From NCBI GenBank assembly GCA_016873845.1, contig VGVX01000001.1, positions 62,001 through 126,000 on the forward strand: a DNA stretch of 64,000 bases. The letters are read 5' to 3'. Positions 11,256-19,026 of this stretch are shown piece by piece. Origin of the DNA: Ignavibacteria bacterium (GTDB lineage Bacteria; Bacteroidota; Ignavibacteria; Ch128b). Position 1 is the first letter of the stretch; every line of letters starts with the position of its first letter. The notes beneath the pieces were generated by a model. The model did no database searches, was not told where the DNA came from, and saw only the letters and a program-made list of their open reading frames with translations. The position numbers and the translations under genes were made by a program.

Positions 11256-12326
11256 TTAAATTAAAGTTATGATTCCTATAATTATTAAATTCAAAAAAGC
11301 GTAAGGAATTAAATATTTCCAACACAAATTCATTAATTGATCGACTCTTAATCTCGGTAGAGTCCACCTGAGCCACATTTGAACAAAAACTAAGAATAAA
11401 CCTTTGCTAAGAAACCACAATAATTGTTCTATCGGAATTAACCACTTAATTTCGAGCGAATTCCCGAGATATCCAAATGGAGACTGCCAACCGCCAAAAA
11501 ATAAAGAAACAGAAATTGCAGCAACTAAAAACATACTTGCATATTCCGCTAAGAAGAACATCGCGAATTTCATTGGTGTGTATTCTGTATAATATCCGGC
11601 AACAAGCTCAGCTTCTGCTTCAGGAATATCGAAGGGAGTACGATTAACTTCTGCAAGCGAAGCAATGAAAAATATTATGAAAGCTACAACCATGAATGGA
11701 ATGAGCAAATATTTTTGAAGCCCTTCAATCGGTCCACCGAATATGTACCAATTGAAGAATGAGGAAGTTTGCATTTCAGCTATTTCATGTAAATTCAACT
11801 TGCCGATGACCATTACAACTGCGATGATCGAGAGGAGTGCTGGAATTTCGTAGCTCACAATTTGTGAAACAGATCTCATTGCGCCATAGAGTGAATATTT
11901 ATTATTCGATGCCCATCCTCCCATCAAAATTCCTACTACCGACAAGGATGAAACCGCAATAATATAAAAAACTCCTAAATTGATTGATGAGCCAATATAA
12001 AAACTCGAAAAGGGAAGCGCAGCAAATCCGGCAAAGCTCCCAATAAAAACTAAGTAAGGTGCAAGAATAAATAATTTTCTGTCAGCTGCACTTGGAATTG
12101 AATCTTCTTTCTGCATCATCTTAATAATATCAGCAACGGTTTGAAGTAATCCCTTTGGACCAACTCTGTTCGGACCGATTCTATCCTGCATAAATGCAGA
12201 AACTTTTCTCTCGGCAAGAACAGCGAACAGGGCAAATGGGACGACAAATAAAAATAAGGGCAATGCAGCACTAATGAAAAATGCAAGGATATCATTACCT
12301 AAAAAATTTCTTAAAAACTCAGACAT
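11256..12326 (-). CDS. nuoH: NADH-quinone oxidoreductase subunit H
   Basis: Membrane subunit at the junction with the quinone chamber, 356 aa with about 8-9 helices. Family signatures: ERKVSAFMQDRIGPNRVGP, NRTPFDIPEAEAELVAGYYT and EYTPMKFAMFFLAEY. These include the acidic loop near the quinone tunnel. ATG overlaps the nuoD stop by one base (TAATG). Confidence 0.96.
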   Translation of the reverse strand: MSEFLRNFLGNDILAFFISAALPLFLFVVPFALFAVLAERKVSAFMQDRIGPNRVGPKGLLQTVADIIKMMQKEDSIPSAADRKLFILAPYLVFIGSFAGFAALPFSSFYIGSSINLGVFYIIAVSSLSVVGILMGGWASNNKYSLYGAMRSVSQIVSYEIPALLSIIAVVMVIGKLNLHEIAEMQTSSFFNWYIFGGPIEGLQKYLLIPFMVVAFIIFFIASLAEVNRTPFDIPEAEAELVAGYYTEYTPMKFAMFFLAEYASMFLVAAISVSLFFGGWQSPFGYLGNSLEIKWLIPIEQLLWFLSKGLFLVFVQMWLRWTLPRLRVDQLMNLCWKYLIPYAFLNLIIIGIITLI

Positions 12327-13441
12327 TATCTATCAATCTCTCCTAAAACAATATCTATGCTTCCAAGATTTGCTATTATATCTGCGACGAGATGCCCTTT
12401 ACAAATTATGGGCATTAGTTGCAAATGTACAAACGAAGGAGCTCTTACTTTAACTCTAAATGGATTCAATGAACCATCACTGATTACATGATAGCCCAAT
12501 TCTCCCTTCGGACTCTCAACACGAAAATAAAATTCACCAACTGGCGGTTTAATTCGCTTTGGCATTGCCGAAGCAATATCACCTTCAGGCAATTGATCGA
12601 GAGCTTGTTCAATTATTCTGATACACTGTTCCATTTCACGAACTCTTACCATGTAGCGATCCCAGCAATCACCTACAGTCCCTTTTTCACCTTTTCCAGT
12701 TATTACCTCAAAATCAAATCTGTCATAAATAGAATACGGATCATTTTTTCTTAAATCCCAATTAACGCCCGAACCGCGTAAAACTGGACCAGTTGCACCA
12801 AAGTTAATTGCTGTATCGACAGGCAAAATTCCAACATTCGCTGTTCTCTCAATGAAAATTTTATTTGTACTTAAAAGATTGTTCAATTCTACAATCGTCT
12901 TTTTAAAATCATTTAAAAACTCTTTGCACTTTAGTACGAAAGTCGGATGGAGATCGTGTGACAAGCCGCCGATCCACATGTAATTATACAAAAGTCTTGC
13001 ACCGCAAGTCATTTCAAATAAATCTAGTATTCTCTCTCTATCTCTAAAACAATAAAGGAATGGAGTCCATGCACCGATATCAATTCCATAGGTCCCGATA
13101 GCTACAAGATGTGAAGCAATTCGCTGAAGTTCGCCCATTATCACTCTGATGAACTTAACACGTTCAGGGATTTCAATGTTCATGAATTTCTCAACACCTT
13201 CTACATATCCGAAATTCATATACATTGATGCGAGGTAATCCATTCTATCAGTGTAGGGAAGAACCTGCTGGTAATTCATTGCTTCGCAATGTTTTTCAAA
13301 ACATCTGTGTAGATAGCCAATGTGTGGAGTTACTTCTACAACGACTTCACCATCGAGCTTAACTTCAAGCCTCAGCACACCGTGAGTTGATGGGTGTTGA
13401 GGACCCATATTTAATACCATTATCTCGGTTCGTAGGGACAT
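12326..13441 (-). CDS. nuoD: NADH-quinone oxidoreductase subunit D (49-kDa type)
   Basis: Quinone-site subunit related to NiFe-hydrogenase large subunits, 371 aa. The N-terminal beta sheet has MGPQHPSTHGVLRLEVKLDG with the quinone-binding histidine, then IGYLHRCFEKHCE and YTDRMDYLASMYMN. The C-terminus IDIVLGEIDR is the canonical end. It is a separate gene, not fused to nuoC. It starts 16 nt from the inner edge of the inverted-repeat element at 13457-13877, so its original upstream spacing has been changed. There is little Shine-Dalgarno signal in the remaining leader. Confidence 0.95.
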   Translation of the reverse strand: MSLRTEIMVLNMGPQHPSTHGVLRLEVKLDGEVVVEVTPHIGYLHRCFEKHCEAMNYQQVLPYTDRMDYLASMYMNFGYVEGVEKFMNIEIPERVKFIRVIMGELQRIASHLVAIGTYGIDIGAWTPFLYCFRDRERILDLFEMTCGARLLYNYMWIGGLSHDLHPTFVLKCKEFLNDFKKTIVELNNLLSTNKIFIERTANVGILPVDTAINFGATGPVLRGSGVNWDLRKNDPYSIYDRFDFEVITGKGEKGTVGDCWDRYMVRVREMEQCIRIIEQALDQLPEGDIASAMPKRIKPPVGEFYFRVESPKGELGYHVISDGSLNPFRVKVRAPSFVHLQLMPIICKGHLVADIIANLGSIDIVLGEIDR

Positions 13442-13456
13442 ATTTATTAACAGATT

Positions 13457-13482
13457 TTAGTATTTAGTAGTGAGTATTGAGA
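13457..13482 (+). repeat. Left terminal inverted repeat of the four-helix-bundle element
   Basis: Plus-strand reading contains AGTATTT, AGTAGTG and AGTATTG in tandem followed by AGA, that is three degenerate heptamers. It is inverted relative to the copy at 13852-13877, with 22 of 26 positions identical. Confidence 0.7.
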
Positions 13483-13485
13483 CAT

Positions 13486-13839
13486 TTAATTTTTAATCGA
13501 ATTTATTAAACCATTTTGCATTTTTTGGAGTTCGTTAATTCTATTATTCAAATCTGATAATTCAGAATCATTCAGATATTTTAAATCATTTGAAAGTATC
13601 AATTGAGTATCCAATTCTCATGAAGAGGAATATGCAATTTCTAAGAATCGGCAGAATTCATTTTTTGAAGAATGTCCAGAACCTTCTGCAATATTAGATG
13701 CAATCGAAACTGTAGCTCTCCTGATTTGATTGGTCAATCCATAAGTTTCTACTTTCGGAAACTTGCTTGTCACATCATATATCATTTTAACCAATTCTCT
13801 CGCCTTTTGCCAAACTTTAAGTTCTCTATAATTATGCAT
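13486..13839 (-). pseudogene. Four-helix-bundle (S23/23S-rRNA-IVS family) protein with in-frame TGA
   Basis: The first 73 codons carry the family hallmarks RELKVWQKARELV, YGLTNQIRRATVSIASNIAE and GSGHSSKNEFCRFLEIAY. A TGA follows at 13618-13620. Beyond it the same frame stays open for 43 more codons to a TAA at 13486 and encodes the expected fourth helix (ELDTQLILSNDLKYLN and the rest). Total length with the TGA codon is 117, normal for the family (about 115-120). So this is a full-length gene interrupted by one stop, not a short gene. The residue lost is probably cysteine or another TGN-related codon. RNA or protein binding is suspected for relatives; the function is not established. Confidence 0.8.
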
Positions 13840-13851
13840 CTATAACTCATA

Positions 13852-13877
13852 TCTCAATACTAAGTACTCAGTACTAA
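13852..13877 (-). repeat. Right terminal inverted repeat of the four-helix-bundle element
   Basis: The minus strand reads AGTACTG, AGTACTT, AGTATTG, AGA: three tandem heptamers of the form AGTAYTK. The leading TTAG contains the stop codon of nuoC (13874-13876). Confidence 0.7.
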
Positions 13878-14395
13878 TAAGGTACTTTCATTCCTTGATA
13901 AAATTCTGGGACTTTATAATCTTTTCGTAGCGGATATCCTTCCCAGTCGTAGGGGAGCAAGATTCGAATTAAATTATGATGACCTTCATAGACTATTCCG
14001 AATAGGTCGAAAGCTTCACGTTCGTGGTAATCTGCAGTCCGCCAAATTTTTTCTACTGTGGGAATCCGTGGATTATCTTTAGGTACAATAACTTTCAGAG
14101 TAAGTTTATGATCGCGATTGATTGAATGCAGATGATAAACGCTTGCAAGATTTCCCCCCACATATTCAAATGAACCATCTTCAAAAGTTTTCTTTTCTCC
14201 ATCAGCCAAATCTACGCCGCTCAGATTCATGAGTGAATCAAATGATAGTCTCTCATCATCTTTTAAAAAATAACAAGCCTCTTTAAGAATTGAAGCTGGC
14301 ACTATCAGAATTTGCTCAGAGATATTTTCTTTTAATTCGAAGGATTGATCAGCAAATTTCTCTTGTAGTAAACCTAAAATTTCTTGAGGGGTCAT
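13874..14395 (-). CDS. nuoC: NADH-quinone oxidoreductase subunit C (30-kDa type)
   Basis: Peripheral-arm subunit, 173 aa. The family signature is seen in the WRTADYHEREAFDLFGIVYE stretch and in ILLPYDWEGYPLRKDY. The protein ends PEFYQGMKVPY, a plausible native end. Its TAG stop is part of the right inverted repeat of the adjacent element, so the insertion either fell exactly at the gene end or replaced the last codons. ATG overlaps the nuoB stop by one base. Confidence 0.95.
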   Translation of the reverse strand: MTPQEILGLLQEKFADQSFELKENISEQILIVPASILKEACYFLKDDERLSFDSLMNLSGVDLADGEKKTFEDGSFEYVGGNLASVYHLHSINRDHKLTLKVIVPKDNPRIPTVEKIWRTADYHEREAFDLFGIVYEGHHNLIRILLPYDWEGYPLRKDYKVPEFYQGMKVPY

Positions 14396-18048: not shown

Positions 18049-19026
18049 ATGAAAAAAATTGTATTAAGCGGTATGCGTCCTACGGGGAAATTGCATATCG
18101 GTCATTATGTTGGCGCACTTGAAAATTGGATCAAACTTCAAAGCGAATTCCAAAATTATCATCTTATTGCTGACTATCATGTTTTAACAACTTCACTCGA
18201 TACGAGCAGAGTTCATCAAGAATCAATAGATATGTTAATCGATTGGATTGCATCTGGCATTGATCCTCAAAAAAGTCCTGTTTTCCGCCAATCACAAATA
18301 AAGGAACATACCGAGCTGCATTTAATCTTTTCTATGTTGATCACAAGCGCTCGGCTTGAAAGAAATCCGACGGTGAAGGATCAAGTCCGTGATTTGAACA
18401 TTGAAAATATTACGTATGGACATCTCGGTTATCCTGTTTTACAGGCTGCGGATATTCTGCTATATAAAGGTGATTTTGTCCCTGTGGGTGAAGATCAAGT
18501 TCCGCACATTGAAATATCAAGAGAGATAGCACGAAAATTCAATTTAACTTGGGGTGAAGTTTTCCCTGAGCCGGAACCAAAGCTGACGAATTTTGCACGA
18601 CTTCCTGGACTTGATGGAAATGCTAAGATGAGTAAATCTTTGAATAATGCTCTTTTGATTTCTGACAGTGAAGAAGAAATAAAAAATAAATTGCGAAAAG
18701 CTGTTACCGATCCTCAGAAAATAAGAAAGAATGATCCCGGTCGACCTGAAGTTTGTCTTGTTTTCACTTATCATAAGAAATTCAATCCGGTAGAAACCGA
18801 TTCACTCGAAAAAGACTGCCGCAGCGGAGTGCTCGGATGCGTAAACTGCAAATTAAGTTGTGCAGAAAAAATTTCTGAATACTTTAAACCGATTAGAGAG
18901 AGAAGACTCGAGCTGGAGAAACAGCCAAAACTTATTACAGATATTTTATATGATGGGGAAGAGCGTGCAAAAAGTAAAGCAAATGAGACAATGGGTGAAG
19001 TACGCGAAAAAATGAAATTTGGATGA
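18049..19026 (+). CDS. trpS: Tryptophanyl-tRNA synthetase with putative [4Fe-4S] cysteine motif
   Basis: Class I synthetase charging tRNA-Trp, 325 aa. HIGH motif at 16-19 (GKLHIGHYVGA), KMSKS at 193-197 (NAKMSKSLNN). In the C-terminal anticodon-binding part C236, C257, C264 and C267 form C-x20-C-x6-C-x2-C. Thermotoga maritima TrpRS binds a [4Fe-4S] cluster through the closely similar C-x22-C-x6-C-x2-C, so this enzyme probably does too (inference). It starts seven bases after the HNH gene and is followed 12 nt later by scpA. Confidence 0.95.
   Translation: MKKIVLSGMRPTGKLHIGHYVGALENWIKLQSEFQNYHLIADYHVLTTSLDTSRVHQESIDMLIDWIASGIDPQKSPVFRQSQIKEHTELHLIFSMLITSARLERNPTVKDQVRDLNIENITYGHLGYPVLQAADILLYKGDFVPVGEDQVPHIEISREIARKFNLTWGEVFPEPEPKLTNFARLPGLDGNAKMSKSLNNALLISDSEEEIKNKLRKAVTDPQKIRKNDPGRPEVCLVFTYHKKFNPVETDSLEKDCRSGVLGCVNCKLSCAEKISEYFKPIRERRLELEKQPKLITDILYDGEERAKSKANETMGEVREKMKFG

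Follow-up and report, generated by a model that had tools for sequence, protein, structure and literature searches.

What are the short tandem repeats that frame a four-helix-bundle gene lying between two genes which, from their sequence, we take to be nuoC and nuoD? In the window, by which we mean the whole 64-kb stretch of DNA analyzed here, the gene stands in sense orientation between these neighbors with a repeat array at either end. A first-pass annotation had described each end as three tandem AGTAYTK-like heptamers, a modular structure unlike ordinary IS ends and tied to the gene, and had suggested that the unit could be recognized by the four-helix-bundle protein or by a host factor. 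On balance, we favor the view that the arrays are the ends of a decayed mobile element of ~0.4 kb, in which inverted arms of ~7-bp units surround a single four-helix-bundle gene, and which would be moved in trans by an enzyme reading the period or shape of its arms and freed from transcripts by RNase III. Its assignment to a kind of mobile element that has no transposase gene, is kin to 23S rRNA intervening sequences and has fast-drifting heptamer ends is well supported; the mobilizing enzyme acting in trans, the mode of end recognition and the transcript step are what we infer.

Table 1 Features of the window copy and its neighbors
Feature	Position	Strand	Description
3′ arm (relative to gene)	13457–13485	+	Three ~7-bp units, AGTATTT AGTAGTG AGTATTG, plus AGA, at 13459–13482
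5′ arm	13849–13877	−	Three ~7-bp units, AGTACTG AGTACTT AGTATTG, plus AGA, read on the minus strand from 13875; overlaps stop codon of upstream gene
Four-helix-bundle gene	13486–13839	−	TIGR02436, S23/IVP-type; one in-frame TGA; open part 13618–13839
Upstream neighbor	13874–14395	−	Presumably nuoC, named from sequence
Downstream neighbor	12326–13441	−	Presumably nuoD, named from sequence

The window copy and its relatives in the same genome

Both arms consist, as annotated, of three tandem AGTAYTK-like heptamers, the middle unit of the 3′ arm being one base off the consensus. Together they form an inverted repeat of 29 nt that is 83% complementary, with a spacing of 363 nt. Three tandem AGTAYTK units, allowing up to three mismatches, match four times in the window, always within the two arms. 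In shuffled windows the mean was 0.04 and none of 100 shuffles reached four, so chance would not be expected to produce the array in 64 kb. The 3′ arm is the only period-7 array in the window scoring at least 11 (the 5′ arm scores 9.5); at this score, periods 5, 6 and 8 give no array and period 9 gives one.

The open part of the gene matches TIGR02436 at 85.9 bits (cut-off 24), and the whole frame, with the TGA read through, at 127.4 bits. Because of this in-frame TGA, the window copy is considered decayed. No transposase gene was found within the element, and no rRNA match in the window. The arms pair in both the MFE and the centroid fold, and the fold of the whole element is not unusual (z −1.2).

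The genome that carries the window contains 12 matches to the four-helix-bundle family. For nine of them, a period of 7 or 14 fits best in at least one flank; the others have period 6/12 (L003), period 9 (L004) or an unclear one (L010). The units vary from copy to copy and include AGTAYT, AGCTGA, AAGGCT, ATTGAGA, AATGCGG, GAACAAG, AAAGTCA and others. AGTAYTK is specific to the window copy, and the layout is general. The pattern AGTAYTNAGTAYTNAGTAYT, with up to two mismatches, occurs 32 times in the genome as against twice for the reversed control pattern, and of these matches only the two arms in the window flank any of the 12 gene copies. Sixteen pattern-found loci lie away from the gene, and 10 of these have DNA of 70–79% similarity in common. 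At L033, the sole pattern-found locus given a family search, the array is inside a T9SS sorting domain (TIGR04183, 2.9e-14).

Heptamer arrays in coding sequence were seen at L033:1497–1636 and also at L014, L019, L021, L023–L026, L034 and L035. In several L033-like loci, TGAGTAT arrays and reverse TGAGAAT arrays recur ~80 bp apart.

Layout, drift and recognition of the ends

The family is present in 32 of 41 genomes (G000 included). For comparison of flanks we assembled 121 loci: the 12 from the window's own genome, 29 from the family search and 80 among the matches listed, mostly better-scoring ones. These yielded 128 hits and, after broken or partial genes were dropped (the window's gene being one of them), 112 full-length genes. 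In 77 of 110 flanks on the left and 76 of 110 on the right, a period of 7 or 14 fitted best, as against 16/109 and 19/109 in control stretches 420 bp further out; period 8 was best in 15/110 and 18/110 flanks, respectively. An array of period 6–9 or 14 scoring at least 9, mostly of period 7, adjoins 95 of the 112 genes and 10 of the 112 outer stretches, and 63 genes have arrays on both sides. Since tandem-repeat ends are found at most other copies too, the ends belong with the four-helix-bundle gene, as had been annotated, and their modular character, unlike that of ordinary IS ends, is likewise upheld.

The arms were next compared with each other, taking the 99th percentile of between-locus comparisons as the threshold. 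Inverted arms exceed it at 59 of 108 loci, direct copies at eight, and the outer stretches at one of 106; the 49 loci that fall below it count against the mobile-element reading. Scanning named genomes yielded 51 loci including the query's own contig; 38 of the other 50 were full length and 36 of these scorable, of which 23 passed the threshold and 13 failed. The passing loci come from cyanobacteria, Bacteroidetes, Acidobacteria, Deltaproteobacteria, Atribacterota, Thiobacillus, Nitrospinae, Planctomycetales and Patescibacteria, and period 8 is frequent in the Deltaproteobacteria and Acidobacteria. Inverted arms were not found at three Ruminococcus copies, and a Thermodesulfatator copy (L187) has arrays that are direct rather than inverted.

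In two related genomes, inverted heptamer-like arms seem to flank a tRNA gene adjoining the four-helix-bundle gene (L065:1353–1424 and L138:666–737).

How closely the arms follow the gene can be read from pairs of copies at different sites (Table 2). Nostoc genes that are 82–90% identical and lie at non-homologous sites mostly have GGGGAAA-type arms. Because close gene relatives at unrelated sites share arms and the sharing fades with protein distance, we conclude that the arms travel with the gene and drift.

Table 2 Arm sharing between copies of the gene at different sites
Protein identity	Fraction of pairs sharing arms	Pairs
At least 85%	0.90	30
75–85%	0.58	36
65–75%	0.62	108
55–65%	0.26	110
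45–55%	0.06	300 (sampled)
Below 45%	0.02	300 (sampled)

In 254 of the 284 pairs at different sites, the two arms of a locus pair better with each other than across loci; with each locus used only once, the count is 29 of 33. Among same-site pairs, within-locus pairing is better in 20 of 32, worse in eight and equal in four; below 70% identity, every one of the 10 pairs favors within-locus pairing, and closer pairs are mixed. The two arms of one copy evidently drift together. In the arms of L045, L048 and L094, same-site relatives have two kinds of heptamer next to each other, as if one unit were displacing another.

Among long simple repeats, heptamers outnumber all others in many bacteria, and the accessible text of two reports (PMC4679880, PMC4692102) puts forward slippage as their source. 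The arrays might accordingly be a functionless by-product of polymerase slippage in unconstrained intergenic DNA beside four-helix-bundle genes. We regard this as quite improbable, because slippage alone leaves the inverted match of the arms unexplained, and because the arms of one copy drift together and travel with the gene.

Still less probable, in our estimation, is the annotation's suggestion that a heptamer array is read sequence-specifically, whether by a host factor or by the four-helix-bundle protein. The period is kept, and solved relatives of the protein exist (2GSC and 2RLD), of which 2GSC forms a five-fold assembly according to the title of a reference, so that repeated contacts are conceivable. 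Nevertheless, the unit differs in most copies of what is one protein family, and it is shared by only 2% of pairs below 45% protein identity. Units are shared chiefly among closely related copies of the gene, and arrays of AGTAYT are found in T9SS coding sequence where the gene is lacking. The annotation's expectation that other copies carry such repeats was thus borne out for tandem repeats as such, and failed for their sequence, which differs, and for their restriction to the gene. Copies preserve their period, their inverted layout and the agreement between their two arms; the sequence of the unit is not preserved. Within one close subfamily, sequence-specific reading could still hold.

Filled and empty sites and movement of the proposed element

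The nuoC–nuoD junction is empty, with overlapping stop and start codons, in all four genomes of the same family in which it was retrieved (G001, G002, G003 and G005). In G023, which belongs to another family, the junction contains a remnant, made up of the gene's end and a single arm with the unit of the window copy. Over its first 60 bp, nuoD of the window is 78% identical to that of G023 and 60% to that of G001, a genome of the same genus; further in, G001 is usually the nearer. One short stretch, window 13400–13441 compared with L151, thus suggests that the element may have reached nuo laterally, together with flanking DNA, from a G023-like donor.

Plasmids of Nostocales provide close pairs of filled and empty sites. 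At site T, where the flanks are 98% identical to an empty plasmid, the empty sequence is AAAAAGTAATTAAC and two plasmids have the filled sequence AAAAA-GTAAT-[element]-GTAAT-TAAC. This is a clean 5-bp target duplication (GTAAT), and the only clean one. Site A|B is filled in three plasmids and empty in five, and two of the filled plasmids have TTCTA at either end of the insert; this duplication is ambiguous, as TTCTA may instead belong to the arm. Approximate 5-bp duplications are seen at sites B|C and U and at a ribonucleotide-reductase site, and the duplication is unreadable at plasmid sites I, C and P and at nuoC–nuoD.

Arms also occur without the gene. In 50 kb of the Nostoc plasmid pNsp_c there are five period-7 arrays scoring at least 12. 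Two of them flank a four-helix-bundle gene, one lies at position 18739, and the remaining two are inverted relative to each other and separated by 107 bp that contain no gene. The arms of this gene-less unit of ~190 bp match a second Nostoc family. The unit matches 100 places in 43 plasmid records, including partial places and the arms of four-helix-bundle elements, and is at least 80% covered at one place in 30 of these records; most of the matches have no flanking DNA in common. In pNPM1, a gene-less copy is located within a four-helix-bundle gene, and no target duplication was seen there beyond one base. Arms alone, with no gene between them, can therefore delimit a mobile unit. Against Rfam, a gene-less copy gave one match, at 11.8 bits compared with a gathering score of 100, and a search of a phage collection gave one weak hit.

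Other sites were also seen to differ in content between related genomes. At one operon junction, two genomes of the same genus, G029 (L049) and G020 (L118), have clearly different four-helix-bundle genes and units, and G038 has none; the junction is either a hot spot or a case of replacement. In G012, a gene-less pair of heptamer-like arms (L222:1380–1480) occupies the site at which a genome of the same genus has a whole element (L139).

Two ideas were considered and rejected: that the unit derives from the target, and that short homology with the arms guides insertion. The nuo, L049/L118 and L042 junctions look alike by eye; across nine sets of junctions and arms, the shared words were no longer than with permuted arms (p 0.24). 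Close gene relatives, moreover, retain their unit at unrelated sites.

The gene itself is under purifying selection. Of 18 pairs, 14 gave finite dN/dS values, 13 of them at 0.01–0.19 and one at 0.42. The lowest (0.01–0.02) belong to the same-site pairs L059/L108 and L112/L120, the latter of which is near silent-site saturation. Such low values at a shared site hint at use in place, either in processing of host transcripts in the manner of a maturase or through some benefit to the host. A host gene would likewise persist for long at one site and show low dN/dS. The family might accordingly consist of adopted operon genes, inherited mostly vertically and moving only rarely and incidentally; their arms would fold into an RNA stem serving to process or stabilize the operon message. 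Same-site orthologues with conserved outer flanks, down to 57–69% protein identity, speak for such adoption as do the two low dN/dS pairs. We nonetheless find it unlikely, as close relatives have empty sites, close gene relatives have the same arms at unrelated sites, and gene-less copies exist.

The orientation of the copies bears on how they move. Both neighbors were called, by mechanical open-frame calls, at 103 loci; both are co-directional with the gene at 78 of these and both opposite at three. This bias fits expression from host operons and selection against antisense insertions. It would also follow if movement were RNA-mediated, the four-helix-bundle protein, as a relative of Avd, binding the RNA stem of the element and passing it to a cellular reverse transcriptase for sense insertion at transcribed loci. 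Kinship between Avd and PF05635 has been published (PMC10053308, in the part accessible), and the Avd model matches the first 73 residues of the window protein weakly, at 25.9 bits against a cut-off of 80. Selection predicts the same orientation bias, however, gene-less copies have the arms and not the protein, and a 5-bp duplication of fixed length is more typical of DNA transposition, so we give the RNA route little credence.

Under the preferred reading of a transposase-less mobile element, movement would take place as DNA, with an enzyme supplied in trans cutting and joining the ends. This enzyme would read the period or shape of the arms rather than one sequence. The units would drift by slippage, and pairing would hold the two arms of a copy alike. 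Once transcribed, the arms could pair into a stem open to cleavage by RNase III, which, by analogy with 23S rRNA intervening sequences, would free the message of the element from that of the host operon. We propose that insertions in operons are tolerated because the element is released from the transcript in this way. Across 142 loci, the duplex energy of 150-nt flanks did not differ from that of outer controls (median −63.5 compared with −64.4 kcal/mol, with the same pair counts); in 58 of these loci the flank duplex has z < −3 relative to shuffles, despite the equal energy of the outer controls.

Relation to known systems

Genes of this family have been recorded in several contexts. The available text of one study classes 18 23S_rRNA_IVP genes in cas loci among CRISPR-Cas-associated functions (PMC3936711), and the family is named in a figure legend of a CRISPR survey seen in extract (PMC10910872). 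Two of our plasmid copies are in cas loci, at a cas6/cas4 and a cas10/cmr3 junction, and an insert-free relative is available for each; both copies resemble the usual insertions of this element. At the cas6|cas4 junction (L272:450–495 compared with L261), the relative without the gene has an array of its own with the unit TTACGAA. In the accessible portions of further sources, Anabaena 90 has MITEs and a heptamer probe figures in the reference list only (PMC3542288), and such genes are listed for a UCYN-A contig (PMC11637426) and in Flavobacterium tables (PMC5524665). No link between four-helix-bundle genes and paired heptamer ends was found in the accessible parts of the open-access literature.

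The arms resemble the STRR heptanucleotides, or heptamer SSRs, which the extracts of PMC4692102 and PMC4679880 describe as intergenic 7-bp arrays with many units per genome. The Nostoc arms are arrays of the GGGGAAA and TCAGGAG types, and the window copy, too, consists of tandem intergenic 7-bp units, although only three of them and with one degenerate base. In the same extracts, STRRs are direct repeats described with no link to a four-helix-bundle gene, and the GGGAATC STRR is described without a link to mobile elements; here the arrays are matched inverted pairs. As a more tentative extension, and one to which we attach clearly less confidence than to the reading of the window copy, the heptanucleotide STRRs, in cyanobacteria as in many other bacteria, could largely be the ends, or worn remains of the ends, of one widespread kind of transposase-less element with an S23/Avd-like protein. 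If its ends are read by period and pairing and not by sequence, each lineage would drift to a unit of its own.

The proposed element would unite three things formerly described separately: the 23S rRNA intervening sequences, the S23 genes found in operons such as the cas loci, and the heptanucleotide repeats. If the reading is true, a small mobile element is widespread in which the ends retain their period and their pairing while their sequence changes, contrary to what is familiar from transposases and the ends they recognize. A test system is offered by the filled and empty plasmid pairs and by the gene-less copies, which something acting in trans must move.

Like MITEs and other non-autonomous IS, the elements are short, have inverted ends, include dispersed gene-less copies on plasmids and left one clean 5-bp duplication. 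They differ in their drifting tandem-heptamer ends and in the conserved four-helix-bundle gene of the full version. Avd of diversity-generating retroelements is a related four-helix bundle, for which the window protein is far below the cut-off. The closest parallel is with 23S rRNA intervening sequences that carry an S23 ORF, as these have the same protein family and inverted ends that pair as a stem. In the Coxiella 23S intervening sequence, tandem heptamers (GACAGAT) lie beside the ORF and RNase III cuts the sequence in vitro, according to the accessible text of PMC4990558. In contrast to the rRNA insertions, the elements described here lie mostly between protein genes, with none of the 20 loci scanned with Rfam, including the 12 of the window's own genome, located in rRNA, and their arms are heptamer arrays with copy-specific units.
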